Assembly (NCBI RefSeq): GCF_001984155.1
Contig: NZ_MTQO01000050.1
Location: 310,001-374,000, forward strand
From: Actinosynnema sp. ALI-1.44
GTDB taxonomy: Bacteria; Actinomycetota; Actinomycetes; Mycobacteriales; Pseudonocardiaceae
DNA length: 64,000 nt
Direction of reading: 5' to 3'
Positions 7,921 to 20,093 of this stretch are shown one piece after another. Position 1 is the first letter of the stretch, and the number at the start of each line of letters is the position of its first letter. Position numbers and translations under genes: made by a program. Below the pieces are notes generated by a model, which was not told where the DNA came from, did no database searches, and saw only the letters and a list, made by a program, of their open reading frames with translations.

Positions 7921-8525
7921 CGGCGGGCGCCGTCCAGCGCCAGGTCGAGGTCGACGAGCGACCGGTGTCCGTCCACTGTGGCGGCACGGCCGCCGTAGCA
8001 GACGTCGTCGAAGATCCTTGCCGCGGCGCGCAACGCGTCGGCGTGCTCGGGCAGGCGCGCCCCGGCTGCCCCGGCGACCTCGTCGACTGTCCGACCGGAA
8101 CGCTCGTCGAGCACACCGCGTTCCTCGAGGCCCCGGACGACCGCCCGGAAGCGCTCCCGGACGGCCTCGGCCAGGTTCCCTTGTGCCTCAGCGGCCAGCG
8201 CCGCCCGGCGGTGGTCGGCGGCGGTGAGCTTGCGGCCCGCGAACACCGCCGCGCTCGCCGCGGCGCGCGCCACCTTCCCGACGCGCAGCCGGACGACCAC
8301 GATCGCGACCATGAGCAGGGCGAACAGGATCGCCAGCCCGACAACACCACCGGGCATGACGCTGGACACGCTGCCCAGCAGCTCGCCGAGCCGGTCGAGC
8401 ACCCAGCGCAGGACCTTGGCGAACATCGACGGCTCGGCGTCCCGGTACGCCGGGTCGGACAGTTCCCGCACGGCCGCGTCGCGTGCTGCGTCGCGGCCGA
8501 TGTCGATCGGAACGTCGTTGCTCAC
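7917..8525 (-). CDS. DUF4129 domain-containing protein
   Basis: A 202-residue protein. The N-terminal soluble stretch ends in FAKVLRWVLDRLGELLG, followed by one membrane helix (GLAILFALLMVAIVVVRL). The cytoplasmic DUF4129 domain follows, with AVRERFRAVVRGLEERGVLD and a RTVDEVAGAA motif. In transglutaminase-like/MoxR clusters this domain is fused to or encoded next to the other members. Overlaps both neighbours by 4 bases (ATGA type), so it is translationally coupled inside the operon. Confidence 0.78.
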   Translation of the reverse strand: MSNDVPIDIGRDAARDAAVRELSDPAYRDAEPSMFAKVLRWVLDRLGELLGSVSSVMPGGVVGLAILFALLMVAIVVVRLRVGKVARAAASAAVFAGRKLTAADHRRAALAAEAQGNLAEAVRERFRAVVRGLEERGVLDERSGRTVDEVAGAAGARLPEHADALRAAARIFDDVCYGGRAATVDGHRSLVDLDLALDGARR

Positions 8526-9559
8526 CAGGTGGTCGGCGGCTGCGGCGGGGGCTGGCTGACGCCGGCCTGACGGGCCAGTTCGATGTCCATGCCTTCGCGC
8601 CGCATCCGGCGGTCGACGTAGATCAGCGTGGTCACGCCGGCGGTGAACGGCATCGTGATGGTCTGCGCGATGATCCCGGCGATGGCCGTGAGCAGCATCG
8701 CGACCTCGAAGTCGGGCGCGAGCCCGACCCCGGTGACGTTGTAGAGGTCACCGGAGGCCAGCGAGAAAGGGATCTGCACGATCTGCGCGATCAGCGAGGT
8801 CATGATCAGCGCGAGCAGCAGGATGCCGAACGTGCGCCACCACGCGCCGTTGATCAGCCGTTTCGAGCGGCCCAGCGCCGTGCCGACCTTGGCGCCCTCC
8901 AGGATCAGCGCGGTGCTGGACAGGCTGAACAGGACGTACAGCCAGACACCGGGGACGATGAACGCGATCGTGCCCGCGGCCACGATCAGCGTGTACAACA
9001 CGCTCAGCCCGAGCAACGCCCAGAAGCGAGGCCGGATGTGGTTCCACGCCTCGCCGACGGTGATGGGCTGGCCGAGCACGGCCTTGCCCATCACAACGGT
9101 GAGCACACCGTTGACGATCATGGCGATCAGCACGGTGACGATCGTGGACGGGATGGTGAGGATCAGCAGGCGCTGCAGGTCCTCGGCGGCCCGGTCAGCC
9201 TCGGACGCCGTCAGCGAGAGGTCGCTGTAGAGCAGCGTAGTCTCGTTGACGATGAAGATCATCAGACCGATGGCGAGCAGGTTGGAGATCGTCGCCGCGA
9301 TCGCCGACACGCCCAGCATCTGCTTGGGGTACGCCCGGATGGCGGAGATCGCGCCGTCGAGGATCTCACCGAGACCCAACGGCCGCAACGGGATCACACC
9401 CGGCTTGGCCGCCTGCGGACCCCACTGCGGCGGCGGTGCCGCCGGGTAGTGGGGGTACGGTTGTTGCTGGGGATGGGGCTGCTGCTGGGGCCCTGGCGCG
9501 GGATCCTGCGATCTGCCCGACTTGTCGTCGGGTGACGACCAGCCTTCGTTCTCTGTCAC
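8522..9559 (-). CDS. Multi-pass membrane protein with proline/glutamine-rich N-terminus
   Basis: A 345-residue protein. The first ~55 residues are low-complexity and rich in Pro, Gln and His. About six transmembrane segments follow, and the conserved PLGLGEILDGAISAIRAYPK leads into the first. This fits the family often annotated as glycerophosphoryl diester phosphodiesterase membrane domain, but no phosphodiesterase catalytic domain is present. It is the first gene of the minus-strand cluster and overlaps DUF4129 by 4 bases. Function unknown; membership of the MoxR-DUF58 membrane complex is inferred from operon position. Confidence 0.72.
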   Translation of the reverse strand: MTENEGWSSPDDKSGRSQDPAPGPQQQPHPQQQPYPHYPAAPPPQWGPQAAKPGVIPLRPLGLGEILDGAISAIRAYPKQMLGVSAIAATISNLLAIGLMIFIVNETTLLYSDLSLTASEADRAAEDLQRLLILTIPSTIVTVLIAMIVNGVLTVVMGKAVLGQPITVGEAWNHIRPRFWALLGLSVLYTLIVAAGTIAFIVPGVWLYVLFSLSSTALILEGAKVGTALGRSKRLINGAWWRTFGILLLALIMTSLIAQIVQIPFSLASGDLYNVTGVGLAPDFEVAMLLTAIAGIIAQTITMPFTAGVTTLIYVDRRMRREGMDIELARQAGVSQPPPQPPTTW

Positions 9560-10794: not shown

Positions 10795-13335
10795 TTACAA
10801 CCGTGGGTCGACGGGCTCGGACTCCAAAGCAAGCACAGCGAAAACACACTCGTGCACCCGCCACAACGGCTCGCCACGCGCGACACGGTCAAGCGCCTCC
10901 AAGCCGAGCGCGTACTCCCGCCCGGCCAGCGACCGCTTACGACCCAAGTTGCGCTGCTTGAGGCGCTTGAGGTGCCGGGGCTCTGTGTAGTCCGGCCCAT
11001 AGATGATCCGCAGGTATTCCCGGCCACGCACTTTCATCCCCGGCTGCACCAGGCCCCGTCGGCCACGCACGAGGTTGGCGGCCGGTTTGACCACCATGCC
11101 CTCGCCTCCCGTCGCGGTCATCTCCTCCCACCACGCGGTCGCGGCTGCCACTGCGTTCTCGTCCGTGGTGTCCACGAACAGGCGCTTTGTTGTGGTGAAT
11201 AGTGACCGGTCCGCTGCCACCAGCCGGTCGGCGATGTCCAGGTGCCATGAGTGCGGTTCGTGTGCGTACGAGCGGCCCTCGCTGGCCAGCACCTGGAACG
11301 GCGCCAGGGTGACACCGTCCAAGCCCTCCGTCGGCCAGCAGTACCGCTGGTATGCGGCTCGGTAGCCGTCCGCGTTGGTTGCTCGCGATCGAGTGGAAGC
11401 CAGCAGATCCCCGACGTCCACGCCACGTGAGTCCGCTTTGGACAGCTCTGCCAACGCTGCTGTCAGAGCCGCCGACGACGCCGCGCCGACCGGGGCGTAC
11501 TGCTGTGTGATGAGGCTGCCCGCTTTGGCGCTCCAGGGCAACAGTTCCGCGTCGAGCAGCAGCCAGTCGGTGTTCAGCTCGTCCCACAGGTCCGCGCAGG
11601 CCGCGCGGATGCGGTTGAGCAACTGTTCGGTCAGGTCTGGTTCGAAGAACGACCGGCCGGTGCGTGTGTACACCGCTCCGCCGCCGTCGATCCCGAACCG
11701 GGCCGACCCGGAATCCCGGCACACCAGGACTACCGCGCGTGAGCCCATGTGCTTCTCCTCGCACACAACGCTTTGCACGCCGTCAGCGCGGTAGGCGTCG
11801 AACGCCTCACGCGGGTGTTCCAGGATGTCGTCGAGCCCCGAGGTGGCGACCGGGCTCATCGTCGGCGGGAGGTACAGCAGCCAGCGCGGGTCGACCGCGA
11901 ACCGGCTCATCACCTCCAGCGCCGCCGCGGCCTGTTCCGGGCGGACCGAGACGCGACCGTGGTGCGTCGTCTCCACGATGCGCTGTCCCGTCACGTCACC
12001 GAGGTCGAGTACGTCCGGGTCACGGCGAGCCACCGCGGGCGGGGGCAACTGCTCCGGCGGCAGCAGCGGCTTGACCGGCTCGTACCAGACCTTGTGGGCC
12101 GCGACCGAGACGATCTCCTTCTCCGGGTAGCGCAACGAGGTCAGCCGTCCACCGAACACGCATCCGGTGTCCAGGCACATGGTTCCGTTGACCCACTCCG
12201 CTGTCGGTGTCGGCGTGTGCCCGTACAGGACCATCGCGCGGCCGCGGTAGTCGTCCGCCCATGGGTAACGCACCGGGAGGCCGTACTCGTCGGTCTCGCC
12301 CGTCGAGTCGCCGTACAACGCGAAACTACGGACTTTGCTCGACGCGCGGCCGTGGTAGTGCTCCGGCAGTCCTGCGTGCGAGACCACGAGGTTTCCGCCG
12401 TCCAGCACGTAGTGCGCGATCAGGCCACCGCAGAACTCCTCGACGCGCTTGCGGAACTCCTCGGTCTCCGCGCTCAACTGCTCCAGCGACTCGGCGAGGC
12501 CGTGCGAGACGCGGACATTCCGCCCCCGCAACGCCCTTGTCAGCTTCTGCTCGTGGTTTCCGCACACGCAGAAGGCGGTCCCGGCGTCGATCATGCCCAT
12601 CACGAGCCGCAACACGCCAGGGGTGTCCGGGCCGCGGTCGACGAGGTCGCCGACGAACACCGCCCGGCGGCCTTCCGGGTGCGCGGCACCGACCGCGCGT
12701 CCCTCTGAGTCCCTGGACAGCACGTAGCCCAGCTTTTCGAGCAGCTCCTCCAACTCCGCCCGGCAACCGTGCACGTCGCCGATCACGTCGAACGGTCCGG
12801 TCTCCCCGCGCTTGTCGTTGAGCAGCGGCTCGACCTCGATCTCGGCCGCGTCGACCTCCTCCGGCGTACGCAACACGTACACCCGCTTGAACCCGTCCTT
12901 CTCCAGCGAGCGGGTCGACTTGCGCAGTTCGTTGCGGTGCCTGCGGATCACGTGCGCACCGAAGTCGCGGTCCGCGCGAGCCTCGTTGCGTTCGACGCAC
13001 AGCGCCTCAGGCATGTCGAGCACGATCGCGACCGGCAGGACGTTGTGCTTCTTGGCCAACGCGATCAGCTGGCCACGCGGCGCGCGCTGCACGTTGGTCG
13101 CGTCGATCACGGTGACGAGACCCGCGGTCATCCGCTTCTCGGCGACGAAGTGCAGCGTTTCGAACGCCGGGCCCGACGCGGCCTGGTCGTTCTCGTCATC
13201 GGACACCAGGCCGCGGAAGAAGTCGCTCGACAGCACCTGCGTCGGCTTGAAGTGCCTGTGCGCGAAGGTGGACTTGCCCGAGCCGGACGCGCCGACGAGC
13301 ACGACAAGCGACATGTCTGGAATGGACAGCTTCAT
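10795..13335 (-). CDS. pnkp: Polynucleotide kinase-phosphatase-ligase (bacterial Pnkp)
   Basis: An 846-residue three-domain RNA repair enzyme. The N-terminal 5'-kinase has P-loop GASGSGKST (15-23). The central calcineurin-type 2',3'-phosphatase has GDVHG (186-190), GDLVDRG (229-235), GNHE (259-262), SHAG (319-322) and GHTP (372-375). The C-terminal nucleotidyltransferase (ligase) domain has EEKHMGSR with adenylated Lys528. The length matches known Pnkp (~850). ATG at 13335 was chosen because it overlaps the hen1 stop as ATGA and begins right before the kinase; the frame extends upstream only as the antisense-like shadow of hen1. Pnkp and Hen1 form a complex that heals and seals RNAs cut by ribotoxins and 2'-O-methylates the junction. 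They form a two-gene operon here. Confidence 0.95.
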   Translation of the reverse strand: MKLSIPDMSLVVLVGASGSGKSTFAHRHFKPTQVLSSDFFRGLVSDDENDQAASGPAFETLHFVAEKRMTAGLVTVIDATNVQRAPRGQLIALAKKHNVLPVAIVLDMPEALCVERNEARADRDFGAHVIRRHRNELRKSTRSLEKDGFKRVYVLRTPEEVDAAEIEVEPLLNDKRGETGPFDVIGDVHGCRAELEELLEKLGYVLSRDSEGRAVGAAHPEGRRAVFVGDLVDRGPDTPGVLRLVMGMIDAGTAFCVCGNHEQKLTRALRGRNVRVSHGLAESLEQLSAETEEFRKRVEEFCGGLIAHYVLDGGNLVVSHAGLPEHYHGRASSKVRSFALYGDSTGETDEYGLPVRYPWADDYRGRAMVLYGHTPTPTAEWVNGTMCLDTGCVFGGRLTSLRYPEKEIVSVAAHKVWYEPVKPLLPPEQLPPPAVARRDPDVLDLGDVTGQRIVETTHHGRVSVRPEQAAAALEVMSRFAVDPRWLLYLPPTMSPVATSGLDDILEHPREAFDAYRADGVQSVVCEEKHMGSRAVVLVCRDSGSARFGIDGGGAVYTRTGRSFFEPDLTEQLLNRIRAACADLWDELNTDWLLLDAELLPWSAKAGSLITQQYAPVGAASSAALTAALAELSKADSRGVDVGDLLASTRSRATNADGYRAAYQRYCWPTEGLDGVTLAPFQVLASEGRSYAHEPHSWHLDIADRLVAADRSLFTTTKRLFVDTTDENAVAAATAWWEEMTATGGEGMVVKPAANLVRGRRGLVQPGMKVRGREYLRIIYGPDYTEPRHLKRLKQRNLGRKRSLAGREYALGLEALDRVARGEPLWRVHECVFAVLALESEPVDPRL

Positions 13336-14729
13336 CGGGTCACCTCGAACACGGCGAGCTGGGTCGGCGGCCCCACTTCGGGGTCGTCCTGGCCGACGGG
13401 GAGGTAGCGGACACGGTAGCCGTGGCGTTCGGCGACACCGTCGGCCCACGCGCGGAACTGCGCGCGAGTCCATTCGAAACGGTGGTCGGCGTGGCGCATC
13501 CTCCCCGCGGGCAGCGTCGGGAACCGGACGTTGTACTCGACGTTCGGCGTGGTGACGACAACTGTCGCCGGGCGCGCGGCACCGAAGACGCTGCGCTCCA
13601 ACGCGGGCAGCCTCGGCTCGTCGAGGTGCTCGATGACCTCCATCAGCACGGCCGCGTCGTAACCGGCCAACGACTGGTCCACATAGGTCAAAGCGGACTG
13701 CCGCAGCGTCAACCTCTCGCGTACGCGCTCCGGCGTCCGCTCGAACCGGCGCGCCGCGACTTCCAACGCGCGCGACGACACGTCGACGCCGACGATCTCG
13801 GTGAACGAGGTTTCCCTGAGCAGGTCCGTCAACAGAGCGCCACCGCCGCACCCCAGGTCCAGGACCCTTTTCGCCCCGGCAGCCTTCAACACCGCGATGA
13901 CACTTCCCCTGCGCTGCGTCGCCAGCGGCACCGAGCGGTCCGGCTCCTCGGCGACGACCGGCTCGGCGAGCGCGTTGTCCAGCTCGTCCTCGTCGGTCTC
14001 GTCCGCCTCGGCGAGCCTGCTCAACGCGAACCGTACGTACGCCTTGCGGTGCTTGAGGTAGCGCCTGCTGATCAGCTCACGTGACGGGTGCTCGGCCAAC
14101 CAGCCCTCGCCCGCGCGCAGCAGCTTCGTGACCTCCTCCTCGGTCACCCAGTAGTGCTTGGCGTTGTCCAGTACGGGCAACAGGACGTAAAGGTGCCGCA
14201 GCGCGTCGGAAACCCGGTGGGTCCCGGACAGGCGCAGGTCGACGTACGGCGAGTCACCCCACTGCGGGAACTTCGGGTCCAGCGGCACGGTACGGGCGTC
14301 GACCTCCCACCCGAGCGGCTCGAACAGCTGCGCGACCAGGTCGGGGCCACCGCGCGACGGCACCGCGGGGACGTGGATCCGCAGCGGGATGGCGGTGTCC
14401 GCGAGCTCCTGGTGTGACTTGGCGACGCCGTTCATCGCGGTCTTGAACACCGCGCTCAACGCGACCGCCAGCATCGACCCGGCCGCGTACGGCCGGTCGT
14501 TGACGTACTGGTTCAGTGTGAAAGCGCGGTCGTGCCTGCCGCGGACGAGCTCGACCGGGTCGATGTCCAGCAGCAACGCGGCGGTGCACTCGTCCTCGCC
14601 TGCCGTGGGGTAGAACACGTGTGCCATGCCCGCCGCGACAGGGAAGGACTGGGCTTTCTCGGGATGCTTGTGCAGCAGGTGGCCGAGATCCGTCGCGGGC
14701 TGGTGTGTCGTGGTCAAGGTCAGTAGCAC
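13332..14729 (-). CDS. hen1: 3'-terminal RNA ribose 2'-O-methyltransferase Hen1
   Basis: A 465-residue protein. The N-terminal Hen1-specific domain (LLTLTTTHQPATDLGHLLHK onward) activates the Pnkp ligase. The C-terminal methyltransferase has SAM motif DLGCGGG (291-297). The metal-binding set that marks Hen1 is E364, E367 and H368 in MEVIEHLD, with H413 in MRHADHRF. GTG at 14729 gives the typical family start; five extra codons upstream are in frame but not conserved. It methylates the 2'-OH at the break of cleaved RNA before sealing, so the same site cannot be cut again. It lies directly upstream of pnkp with a 4-base overlap. No ribotoxin gene is visible nearby. Confidence 0.95.
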   Translation of the reverse strand: MLLTLTTTHQPATDLGHLLHKHPEKAQSFPVAAGMAHVFYPTAGEDECTAALLLDIDPVELVRGRHDRAFTLNQYVNDRPYAAGSMLAVALSAVFKTAMNGVAKSHQELADTAIPLRIHVPAVPSRGGPDLVAQLFEPLGWEVDARTVPLDPKFPQWGDSPYVDLRLSGTHRVSDALRHLYVLLPVLDNAKHYWVTEEEVTKLLRAGEGWLAEHPSRELISRRYLKHRKAYVRFALSRLAEADETDEDELDNALAEPVVAEEPDRSVPLATQRRGSVIAVLKAAGAKRVLDLGCGGGALLTDLLRETSFTEIVGVDVSSRALEVAARRFERTPERVRERLTLRQSALTYVDQSLAGYDAAVLMEVIEHLDEPRLPALERSVFGAARPATVVVTTPNVEYNVRFPTLPAGRMRHADHRFEWTRAQFRAWADGVAERHGYRVRYLPVGQDDPEVGPPTQLAVFEVTR

Positions 14730-15119
14730 CGCGTGAGTGTCCCGCATCCGACCGCGCCGTTCACCCTCTTTATCCAGGTCGAGCCGCGTGGTGAACCGGC
14801 AGGCCCGGGTGTCTGCTGCGCGACTGGACCACCGGCGGCTCCGGAGTGCCGGACGCGATCCGCCGCCAGTCCGGCGACACGCGTATCCGGCCGAGCCGGA
14901 GCAGGCAAGTCCACTGTGGTCACCTCACCTGTCTGATGTGGACGATCACTCCTCCCGGTGCGACCGCCGCCGCGACCTGTGACACCGCGCGACCGGATCG
15001 TCCGGCATGATCACACATCTGCACACTGAACGCACCAATCGTGGTTCTCCCTTCCGGGTATCTGAACGGGCAAGCGGATCTGCCAGGTCCGCCACACACC
15101 CGAAGAACGGAAGGTCGAG
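14730..15119. other. Intergenic region between hen1 and a small secreted protein gene
   Basis: A 390-base divergent spacer. I see no convincing ORF, RNA gene or repeat in it. It must hold the hen1-pnkp promoter (minus) and the promoter of the small secreted protein (plus), but no clear -35/-10 pair could be assigned. A ribosome site CGGAAGG lies at 15108-15114. Confidence 0.5.
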
Positions 15120-15410
15120 ATGATGCGCAAATTCCTGTCGGCGGGCGTCCTGTCCGCCGCCGCGGCGGTTGCCCTGATGCCCCTGTTCAGCGCGCAGGCC
15201 ACCGCCGAGGAGGGAAACGGTTCCGAAGCCGAGTGGACCTACGTCGAAGACTACTTCCACCTCCCGCAGTGCCGGGACGCCGGTGAGGCCGGCGTGGACA
15301 CCGGGGAATGGGACCACTACAAGTGCGAGTTCCAGACCGTCCCCGGTGAGTGGAACCTCTACGTGATCGACCACGACGACGAGGACGACGAAGAGGGTGA
15401 CGACGACTGA
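15120..15410 (+). CDS. Small secreted acidic protein
   Basis: 96 residues. A signal peptide (MMRKFLSAGVLSAAAAVALM to about AQATAEE) is followed by a ~65-residue mature chain. The mature part has two cysteines (CRDAG and YKCEF), aromatic residues, and a strongly acidic tail DHDDEDDEEGDDD. Two ATGs are adjacent; either suits the CGGAAGG ribosome site 6-9 bases upstream. I do not recognise a family. The acidic tail could bind divalent cations, but that is speculation. A 12-bp hairpin follows about 75 bases downstream. Confidence 0.65.
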   Translation: MMRKFLSAGVLSAAAAVALMPLFSAQATAEEGNGSEAEWTYVEDYFHLPQCRDAGEAGVDTGEWDHYKCEFQTVPGEWNLYVIDHDDEDDEEGDDD

Positions 15411-16071: not shown

Positions 16072-16175
16072 TCCACCGATGGGTATCGCCGTCCACACGA
16101 TAGAGCGCCTCAAGACGGTTACTTTGAATGAGCGGCCACTGTGGGTCGCTCTACCAAACACAAAGGAGGAGTTCG

Positions 16176-17252
16176 GTGGCGTTCAATCGTTGGGTAGCGC
16201 GGCTAGCGCTGGTAGGCGGGCTCGCATTGGTGTGGCCCATCACCGCCGGTATGGCGAATGCCAGCCCCTGGGACCATGTGCCCGGACACAACGAGGTTGC
16301 GGTGAGCAACTTCGAATCGGATGACAACGACACGTTGGTTTCCAACGTGTACTCCCACTCCAACTGGGTGGGGATCGTCAACGACGAGTCCGACGCCAAC
16401 TGGACGGCCGTGCTCAACGAGGAGTCCGCGTTCAACGCCACGGCTGTCGTCAACGATGACTCGTACGGCAACGACACAGCCGTGGTGAACGAGGAGTCCG
16501 CGTACAACGCGACGTCGGTCAGCAATGACGACGCGATCGGGAACGACGCCGCGGTGAGCAACGATGAGTCCATCGACAACACCACCTCGGTGTCGAACGA
16601 GGATGCTGACGACAACGTGACTGCTGTCGTGAACGACGATGCGGCTCACAATGATGTTGCGGTGTCGAACGAGGATGCTGACAGCAACGTGACTGCCGTG
16701 GTGAACGACGATGCGGCTCACAATGATGTTGCGGTGTCGAACGAGGATGCTGACGACAACGTGACTGCCGTGGTGAACGACGATGCGGGTCACAATGATG
16801 TTGCGGTGTCGAACGAGGATGCTGACGACAACGAGACTGCCGTGGTCAACCACCACGCGACCGACAACGACGTCGCGGTGAGCAACACCGACGCTGATGA
16901 CAACGACACTGCCGTGGTCAACCACCACGCGACCGAGAACGCGTCCGTCGTCAGCAACACCTCTTCATCCGACAACACCACAAGCGTCAACAACATCCAC
17001 GCCAGCCACAACACGTCGGTTGTGAGCAACTTGGACAGCCACGACAACAACACTGCGATTGCGAACGAGCACTCGACAGAGGCCACGACCGTTGTGAGCA
17101 ACAACGGCTCCCACGGCAACGACACCGCTGTGATGAACACCAACGCCACCAACACGACCACCGTGGTCGCTGGTAACGGCACTCATCACAACGCCACCAC
17201 TATCGCCAACAGCGGTCACGGCAACACCACCGTCATCAGCAACAAGGGGTGA
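16176..17252 (+). CDS. Secreted protein of 25 tandem dodecapeptides, predicted beta-solenoid
   Basis: 358 residues. A signal peptide (about 1-30, ending MANASP) and a short linker precede 25 gapless 12-residue repeats at 41-340, with two shorter end repeats to the C-terminus. The consensus is [TV]-A-V-[VS]-N-[DE]-[DE]-[AS]-x-x-N-x. Asn at position 5 is kept in 24 of 25 repeats and Asn at position 11 in nearly all; there are no cysteines, and hydrophobic residues alternate at positions 1-4. A strict 12-residue period with ladders of Asn and Thr fits a one-turn-per-repeat beta-helix like those of insect antifreeze proteins or an amyloid-like adhesin; the fold is inference. GTG at 16176 has AAAGGAGG 7 bases upstream; the upstream frame lacks a ribosome site. 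No cell-wall anchor is seen. A strong terminator follows. Confidence 0.8.
   Translation: MAFNRWVARLALVGGLALVWPITAGMANASPWDHVPGHNEVAVSNFESDDNDTLVSNVYSHSNWVGIVNDESDANWTAVLNEESAFNATAVVNDDSYGNDTAVVNEESAYNATSVSNDDAIGNDAAVSNDESIDNTTSVSNEDADDNVTAVVNDDAAHNDVAVSNEDADSNVTAVVNDDAAHNDVAVSNEDADDNVTAVVNDDAGHNDVAVSNEDADDNETAVVNHHATDNDVAVSNTDADDNDTAVVNHHATENASVVSNTSSSDNTTSVNNIHASHNTSVVSNLDSHDNNTAIANEHSTEATTVVSNNGSHGNDTAVMNTNATNTTTVVAGNGTHHNATTIANSGHGNTTVISNKG
16590..16841 (+). repeat. 72-bp near-identical tandem repeat inside the dodecapeptide gene
   Basis: Units starting at 16590, 16662 and 16734, plus a partial fourth at 16806, are almost identical at the DNA level, with only a few substitutions. Each unit encodes two dodecapeptides (VAVSNEDADDNV and TAVVNDDAAHND types). 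The flanking repeats are alike only as protein. Recent duplication or gene conversion within the array is implied. Confidence 0.85.
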
Positions 17253-17278: not shown

Positions 17279-17314
17279 ACAGGTGAGACCGGGAGACGGC
17301 CTGGTCTCACCTGT
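17279..17314 (+). terminator. Hairpin terminator after the dodecapeptide gene
   Basis: Perfect 12-bp stem ACAGGTGAGACC / GGTCTCACCTGT with a 12-base loop, 27 bases after the stop codon. Confidence 0.65.
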
Positions 17315-19493: not shown

Positions 19494-20093
19494 ATGTTTG
19501 GAGTACGACACATGGCACGTGGTGGCTGGCATGGACGCGGCGGCTTCAAAGGCCGCGGCGGATGGCAACAGTCGGACCTGCCGTCCGCGGACGACGCGGC
19601 AGCCTGGTTCGCCGGACGACTGCCGGACGGGTGGTTCACCGAGCCGCCGACGGTGTCCGTGGACAGGGAAGAGATCATCATCGTCGGCACGCTGCCTGCC
19701 GTCGAAGGCGAGTTCGAGGACGACGCGGCCAAGGCGGCGGCGGAATCCGGCCGGATCAGCCGTTTCCGCGAAGACACCAGGGACGAGCGGATCGACATCG
19801 CCCGCCAGGCCGAACACCGCTACGGCCGCAAGGTGGCGTGGGGCGCGAAGGTCGGATCGACGGAAGAGCTGTTCACCACCCTCTCCGCACCGGTGATGAC
19901 CAGGCTGCGCCAACCCGAACGACTGATCCTCGACACCCTCGTCGACGCAGGCGTGGCCCGATCCCGTTCGGAAGCACTGGCGTGGGCAGTCCGCCTGGTC
20001 GGCGAACACGCCGACACCTGGCTGGCCGAACTGCGCGACGCCATGTCCAAGGTGGACGACCTGCGCGCGAAAGGCCCGGAGTTCGAGTCCTGA
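19494..20093 (+). CDS. Conserved actinobacterial protein with RHH-like C-terminus
   Basis: 199 residues. A Gly/Arg-rich N-terminus (GGWHGRGGFKGRGGW) precedes a compact domain with LPDGWFTEPPTVSVDREEI, then RDERIDIARQAEHRYGRKVA. The last 60 residues (LDTLVDAGVARSRSEALAWA) resemble the dimerising helices of ribbon-helix-helix proteins, where RSRSEAL is typical. I recall close relatives as uncharacterised proteins in many actinobacteria. ATG has AAGGAG 7 bases upstream. DNA or RNA binding is possible but not shown. Confidence 0.7.
   Translation: MFGVRHMARGGWHGRGGFKGRGGWQQSDLPSADDAAAWFAGRLPDGWFTEPPTVSVDREEIIIVGTLPAVEGEFEDDAAKAAAESGRISRFREDTRDERIDIARQAEHRYGRKVAWGAKVGSTEELFTTLSAPVMTRLRQPERLILDTLVDAGVARSRSEALAWAVRLVGEHADTWLAELRDAMSKVDDLRAKGPEFES

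Follow-up and report, generated by a model that had tools for sequence, protein, structure and literature searches.

A family of secreted Asn-ladder repeat proteins with a predicted beta-solenoid fold in the Kibdelosporangium cluster of the Pseudonocardiaceae

Insect antifreeze proteins are beta-solenoids with a short constant period, and a 12-residue period together with a flat face is found in some ice-binding solenoids. In curlins the repeat kernel is N-x-psi-x-psi-x-Q-X-G-X-X (PMC10192328), and in the same paper R15.5 of Pontibacter korlensis is described as ending in a half turn, so that its ends lie on one sheet. The rodlins RdlA and RdlB and the chaplins of Streptomyces are secreted actinomycete surface proteins (PMC3079736, PMC5314377), and rodlins have about 105 residues when mature (PMC5314377).

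The gene described here lies in a 64-kb stretch of the genome of the soil actinomycete Actinosynnema sp. ALI-1.44, the whole of which is referred to as the window. Its product has the repeat kernel N-x-T/V-x-V-x-N-x-x-A/S-x-x, which has the spacing of the curlin kernel with Asn in place of Gln. A turn of about 24 residues with two strands, as in curlin, is also proposed here; the repeat number is variable in both, and the odd number of strands corresponds to the half-turn ending described for R15.5. The second ladder is Gln in curlin and Asn in the solenoid, and the curlin arcs are X-G-X-X whereas those of the solenoid comprise five residues with Ala/Ser. PDB entry 8c50 is a curlin-repeat protein, which we take to be R15.5; it has many acidic residues, like the window protein, many of them at the outward mid-strand places where the solenoid has mostly small residues. 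Curlin systems include the csg secretion genes (CsgG); the host of the solenoid is actinobacterial, and its genome gave no match to CsgG (PF03783, 0/1). The curlin profile (PF07012) had no match over the 20.7-bit cut-off in this genome, with three weak matches at other places, and a profile comparison with curlin repeats was null, 52 of 200 column-permuted controls being equally good. A resemblance to curli architecture, if real, would apparently be convergent. Unlike the insect antifreeze solenoids, the solenoid lacks Cys and a Thr-x-Thr face, and its unit probably spans 24 residues. The solenoid matches neither rodlins (NCBIfam NF041022) nor chaplins, and an aerial-coat role like theirs would be conjectural.

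The gene, its flanking signals and the repeat array

Features were located in the window and in homologous loci (Table 1). The secreted nature of the window protein is regarded as solid. As in the preliminary description, cysteine and a cell-wall anchor were absent from the 358-residue protein (Cys 0; no LPxT[GA] motif). The 70 bases past the stop codon folded at -36.5 kcal/mol with a 15-bp hairpin starting 26 bases after the stop, so transcription is probably separate from that of the downstream neighbour. The gene is flanked by a small acidic secreted protein on one side, for which Pfam and NCBIfam searches gave no match, and by a DUF255 thioredoxin-like gene on the other. A conserved stem in the presumed 5' leader was considered and is not claimed: it has just 5 pairs, 2 of them changed on both sides, with an energy of -0.23.

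Table 1. Features of the window and of homologous loci (window positions unless a locus is named)
Feature	Position	Strand	Basis or remark
Long frame beside Hen1	10795-13851	-	translation looks like the kinase-phosphatase partner of Hen1 (by reading)
Bacterial Hen1 RNA-repair methyltransferase	13335-14747	-	
96-aa secreted protein, acidic tail	15120-15410	+	upstream of solenoid gene
Promoter-like element, CACGAT, 18-base spacer, TACTTT (16120-16125)	16096..16126	+	common to homologous loci; putative function
Inverted repeat GAGCG...CGCTC, presumed 5' leader	16130..16151	+	sequence; weak common stem
Ribosome-binding site AAAGGAGGAG	16162..16171	+	sequence
Asn-ladder beta-solenoid gene (predicted fold), 358-aa secreted product	16176..17252	+	reading frame (start GTG at 16176, stop TGA with last base 17252), repeats, homologues
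Signal peptide, about the first 30 residues, end ANAS	16176..16265	+	sequence; cleavage site by eye; pLDDT <50 at 1-33
27-strand solenoid domain (predicted), residues 39-356	16290..17243	+	repeats, AlphaFold2, parity, sheet asymmetry
15-bp hairpin, possible terminator	17279..17314	+	folding of 3' flank; no T run after
AbmR-type ATP-binding transcription factor	19494-20090	+	NCBIfam, 277.8 bits
S2-family small secreted protein, 117 aa	21910..22260	-	S2 matches; 4.66 kb from window solenoid gene
S1 sites	L024:7.0-8.0 kb; L108:3555-3785; L109:9315-9599		downstream of solenoid gene
Two short solenoid genes in tandem (genome G064)	L110:7468-8142 and 8510-8848		first broken by a Gly/Leu/Ile-rich insert
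713-714-aa protein (genus g67)	L111:8789-10927	-	long acidic D/E/H/S-rich region before the Asn-ladder domain

When the upstream regions of 13 homologous loci were aligned, the columns CGA and TA...T proved invariant; their setting is CACCCGAT (or a variant of it), a stretch of about 18 bases, and TACCTT (or a variant of it). A pattern derived from these same upstream regions matched 5' of the repeat gene in 11/13 loci and once in the 64-kb window, 5' of the solenoid gene; two further matches lay elsewhere in 12 flanking loci (L024, L030), and there was no match in the four g56/g67 loci searched. The common element suggests that the genus members may be under a single regulator. A Streptomyces BldN-type promoter was rejected, since it was found in 1/13 loci at up to 2 mismatches against a shuffle mean of 0.99.

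The window protein had been described as 25 gapless in-register dodecapeptides with Asn ladders. The register and ladders were confirmed, and the count was corrected to 26 full dodecamers (residues 37 to 348, no insertion) plus a final strand, with the final arc shorter by one residue (N345-SGHG-N350). In the register from residue 37, Asn occupied position 3 in 24/26 and position 9 in 25/26 repeats, and Val/Ile occupied position 7 in all 26. Matches at lag 12 numbered 120/316; 10,000 shuffles averaged 35.7 and never exceeded 60. The constant 12-residue period was thus far beyond chance, but the stronger period was 24, with identities of 0.605 at lag 24 and 0.380 at lag 12; at the DNA level the array is also readable as 72-base units.

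Repeat unit, inward positions and predicted fold

The window protein was modelled with AlphaFold2 from 13 sequences at good confidence, giving a mean pLDDT of 85.6, a pTM of 0.82 and 27 strands. A second model, built from 5 sequences, was made for the genus member whose lag-24 identity was lowest at 0.38 (pLDDT 74.9, pTM 0.77, 20 strand elements); this model was less regular than that of the window protein, some strands being 21 residues long. Models were judged by strand assignment and confidence values. Low confidence throughout, which the preliminary description had named as the outcome that would count against a solenoid, was not seen. AlphaFold2 yields confident false beta-solenoids on perfect repeats, as reported in PMC11795689, so independent evidence was sought in the sequences.

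Thirteen proteins were tiled into 315 units, with slips in 5 of the 13 proteins. Entropy was low at positions 1, 3, 5, 7 and 10 and higher at 2, 4, 6, 8, 9, 11 and 12. Taking the former as the inward set, which was defined after conservation had been seen, charged or His residues occurred at 21/1575 inward against 819/2205 outward positions, and at 6/1260 inward positions when position 10 was left out. Position 7 was Asn in 301/315 units and Gln in 0/315, the tiling favouring Asn at 1/7 and Val/Ile at 5 when choosing slips, so that counts at these positions are slightly high. At the outward mid-strand positions 4 and 6 charge or His was found in 37/644 cases, against 266/644 at 2 and 8. Substitution rates matched the inward/outward split, clearly in one close pair (L029/L032, dN/dS 0.156 inward and 0.548 outward) and weakly in the other (L024/L025, 0.180 and 0.221).

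Identity at lag 24 exceeded that at lag 12 in 13/13 genus members. The g56 relatives, with identities at lags 12 and 24 of 0.34/0.34 (L046) and 0.39/0.43 (L048), are weaker support for a 24-residue unit. Strand totals, taken for the genus members and with the first strand of L023 set by eye because its tiling was one residue out, were 27, 33, 47, 25, 23, 23, 23, 19, 21, 23, 31, 17 and 23, odd in 13/13. Unequal crossing-over of 72-base units could also preserve parity, and the odd count is therefore support rather than proof. Position 1 had lost its Asn in 39 units. With the strands numbered from the C terminus, 38 of these replacements belong to odd strands and hence to one sheet; 37 of the 39 changes fall at three homologous C-terminal units and thus represent few independent events. 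Odd parity and sheet asymmetry together point to two strands per turn with both ends on one sheet, and not to the single turn per 12 residues, with the geometry of insect antifreeze proteins, that had been proposed at the outset. On this sequence evidence a 24-residue repeat unit with two strands per turn is likely, and the window protein is very likely to fold as a beta-solenoid.

Distribution of the family and its neighbours

A search of 60 genomes, including the own one, returned homologues in 7, all within one 8-genome genus cluster (Kibdelosporangium/Actinocrispum); the eighth genome of the cluster, G006, gave none. Four family genes were located in the window's genome, on contigs C47, C38, C32 and C51. 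A 48-residue repeat profile matched 11 of 297 genomes of the taxonomic family, 7 from the own genus and 4 from two other Pseudonocardiaceae genera (3 from g56 and 1 from g67), and 1/396 genomes of a phylum sample, the own one. A full-length profile matched 27/297, of which 16 were left out of the family, L050 to L053 by reading and the others by their matched range and a silent repeat profile; in a class sample 3/394 genomes matched, one being the own genome and the other two being of low complexity. Matches in genus g8 (residues 1-57) were rejected as members: the three that were read, L051-L053, have the N-terminal region in common with the family (the signal peptide plus a short stretch, GDNNVNV) and lack the repeats. 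The C-terminal part of these three proteins is Ala/Pro-rich. L050, L054 and L055 were discarded as low-complexity matches. In the tandem locus L110, one profile match runs across a stop.

The preliminary description had named no actinobacterial family with this consensus, and the searches agreed: the window protein had no match in Pfam (E up to 1), NCBIfam, PHROGs or PDB sequences, and the family profiles had none in PDB sequences. Weak Pfam rows for the members each touched 1 or 2 of the 13, with a best E of 0.019. A phage or plasmid origin was discarded after tblastn against phage and plasmid collections gave no match at 1e-5. Open-access searches, which mostly do not extend to subscription papers, found no literature on this Asn-ladder family, and the searches made for coat proteins of these genera found no paper. 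The preliminary description had suggested a survey of Pseudonocardiales genomes for variation in repeat number; the number of strands ranges from 17 to 47 among the 13 genus members, and terminal rungs are conserved and the middle differs in length. The family and its repeat logic are considered solid.

A different homologous locus carries a neighbour termed S1, a small two-Cys secreted protein with the core NVSVLPxQxCG...CxNAPxG; the window copy has no S1 neighbour. In the genus (L024) this locus lies next to a penicillin-binding protein and, on its upstream side, an ATP-dependent RNA helicase that carries DUF3418, and the S1-linked g56 locus L108 also precedes a penicillin-binding protein. 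Twelve genomes were searched, giving 12 S1 matches in 10 genomes. Ten of the 12, each from a different genome and together covering two genera, followed a solenoid gene in the same orientation at 115-289 bases, with distances taken between profile matches; 8 of these 10 genomes had supplied the query alignment, G003 had been read earlier without entering it, and the search added G064. In the same search G006 had neither solenoid nor S1, and in G177 the solenoid was present and S1 was not found at E 0.01.

S1-like proteins were detected in 63/297 genomes of the taxonomic family, 53 of them without the solenoid, and S1 is therefore not confined to it. Twenty S1-like loci were read, 13 had clean frames, and 5 of the 13, chosen by hand, were scanned against Pfam. 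The chaplin domain (PF03777) was the best match of all five, below cut-off in each case (E 0.027-1.2), and nine S1 rows compared with the chaplin profile (PF03777, ChpA-C) gave 0/9 matches. With the two conserved Cys of S1, the five sub-cut-off matches are its likeness to the chaplins, and the S1 relatives form a larger, weakly chaplin-like Pseudonocardiaceae family. A second family of small secreted proteins, S2, was counted in 20 rows (one weak row excluded), of which 3 lay no more than 1 kb from a solenoid gene. The sole chaplin-profile match over cut-off in the own genome scored 25.3 bits and lies inside a 1268-aa frame (L064, G000:C50:316012-316116). A rodlin-like stretch in the same genome (NF041022; L065, G000:C28:6134-6310) scored 62.8 bits, below the cut-off of 75.

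Proposed role and alternative readings

Ice binding, amyloid-like surface fibres and cation binding had all been suggested for the window protein, and the fibre is our best guess among them. We see about an even chance that the protein is the extracellular subunit of curli-like fibres on the hyphal or aerial surface. After removal of the signal peptide the chain would fold as a flat two-sheeted beta-solenoid, each 12-mer contributing a 7-residue strand and a 5-residue arc, with a full turn for every pair of 12-mers. Ladders of Asn1, Thr/Val3, Val5, Asn7 and Ala/Ser10 would be stacked in the core, with the Asn amides tying rungs and arcs, like Gln and Asn in curlin. The outside would present charged arcs and faces with small residues in their middles (Ala, Ser, Val, Thr, Gly), and such faces could pack together. 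With an odd number of strands the two ends would lie on one sheet, their edge strands exposed and their terminal rungs conserved, which would suit end-to-end stacking. Subunits would assemble extracellularly into fibres, possibly with the small two-Cys secreted proteins as partners; we infer the polymerisation, the surface location and this partnership. The strong acidity of the window protein could oppose stacking.

That acidity would suit a solenoid that remains monomeric, a rigid secreted rod binding cations, a matrix polymer or the wall via its acidic arcs. The mature window protein has a pI of 4.05 with 60 D/E and 1 K/R, the pI is at or below 5.5 in 12/13 genus members, and the own genome has neither CsgG nor a curlin match over cut-off. 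The charge is not conserved, however, the two g56 relatives having Arg-rich arcs on the same core (pI 11.0 for L046 and 10.8 for L048), and the conserved terminal rungs with a length-variable middle fit ends that stack; the monomeric rod is rather unlikely. The window copy may bind cations through its acidic arcs, but given the basic g56 pair this is unlikely as a common function of the family. It is also improbable, and more clearly so, that the chain is intrinsically disordered and Asn-rich with the solenoid an AlphaFold2 artefact: the bias of AlphaFold2 on perfect repeats and the high D, N, S and T content would allow it, but alternating conservation, nearly charge-free alternate positions and strand parity would not be expected of such a chain, and the less regular member was also modelled as strands.

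Membership of the true curlins, as a diverged CsgA, has been largely refuted and is very improbable. The kernel spacing (N-x-psi-x-psi-x-, then N for Q) and the two strands per turn are alike, the latter by deduction (PMC10192328); against this stand the absence of Gln from the ladder position, the sub-cut-off PF07012 scores, the missing CsgG and the null profile comparison. An antifreeze or ice-recrystallisation protein, to which the 12-residue period and flat face had pointed, is hardly credible, since outward Thr pairs occur in just 4/322 units at positions 4 and 6 and 5/322 at 2 and 4, Cys is absent and the unit has 24 residues.

Returning to the curli-like fibre, a broader form of it is put forward tentatively and is doubtful: an independently evolved Gram-positive curli-like amyloid with an all-Asn ladder and silk-like small-residue faces, replacing or organising the chaplin/rodlin coat in Kibdelosporangium and relatives, in which several paralogues, unlike in length and charge but sharing one promoter type, would co-polymerise. 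If the fibre reading is true, the family would represent a curli-type architecture in actinobacteria with Asn doing the work of Gln. It would provide natural variants that range from 17 to 47 strands and bear opposite surface charges on one core, so that the design of an amyloid (the core residues needed, fibre length and lateral packing) would be directly testable, and it would give the genera of the Kibdelosporangium cluster a candidate surface component.
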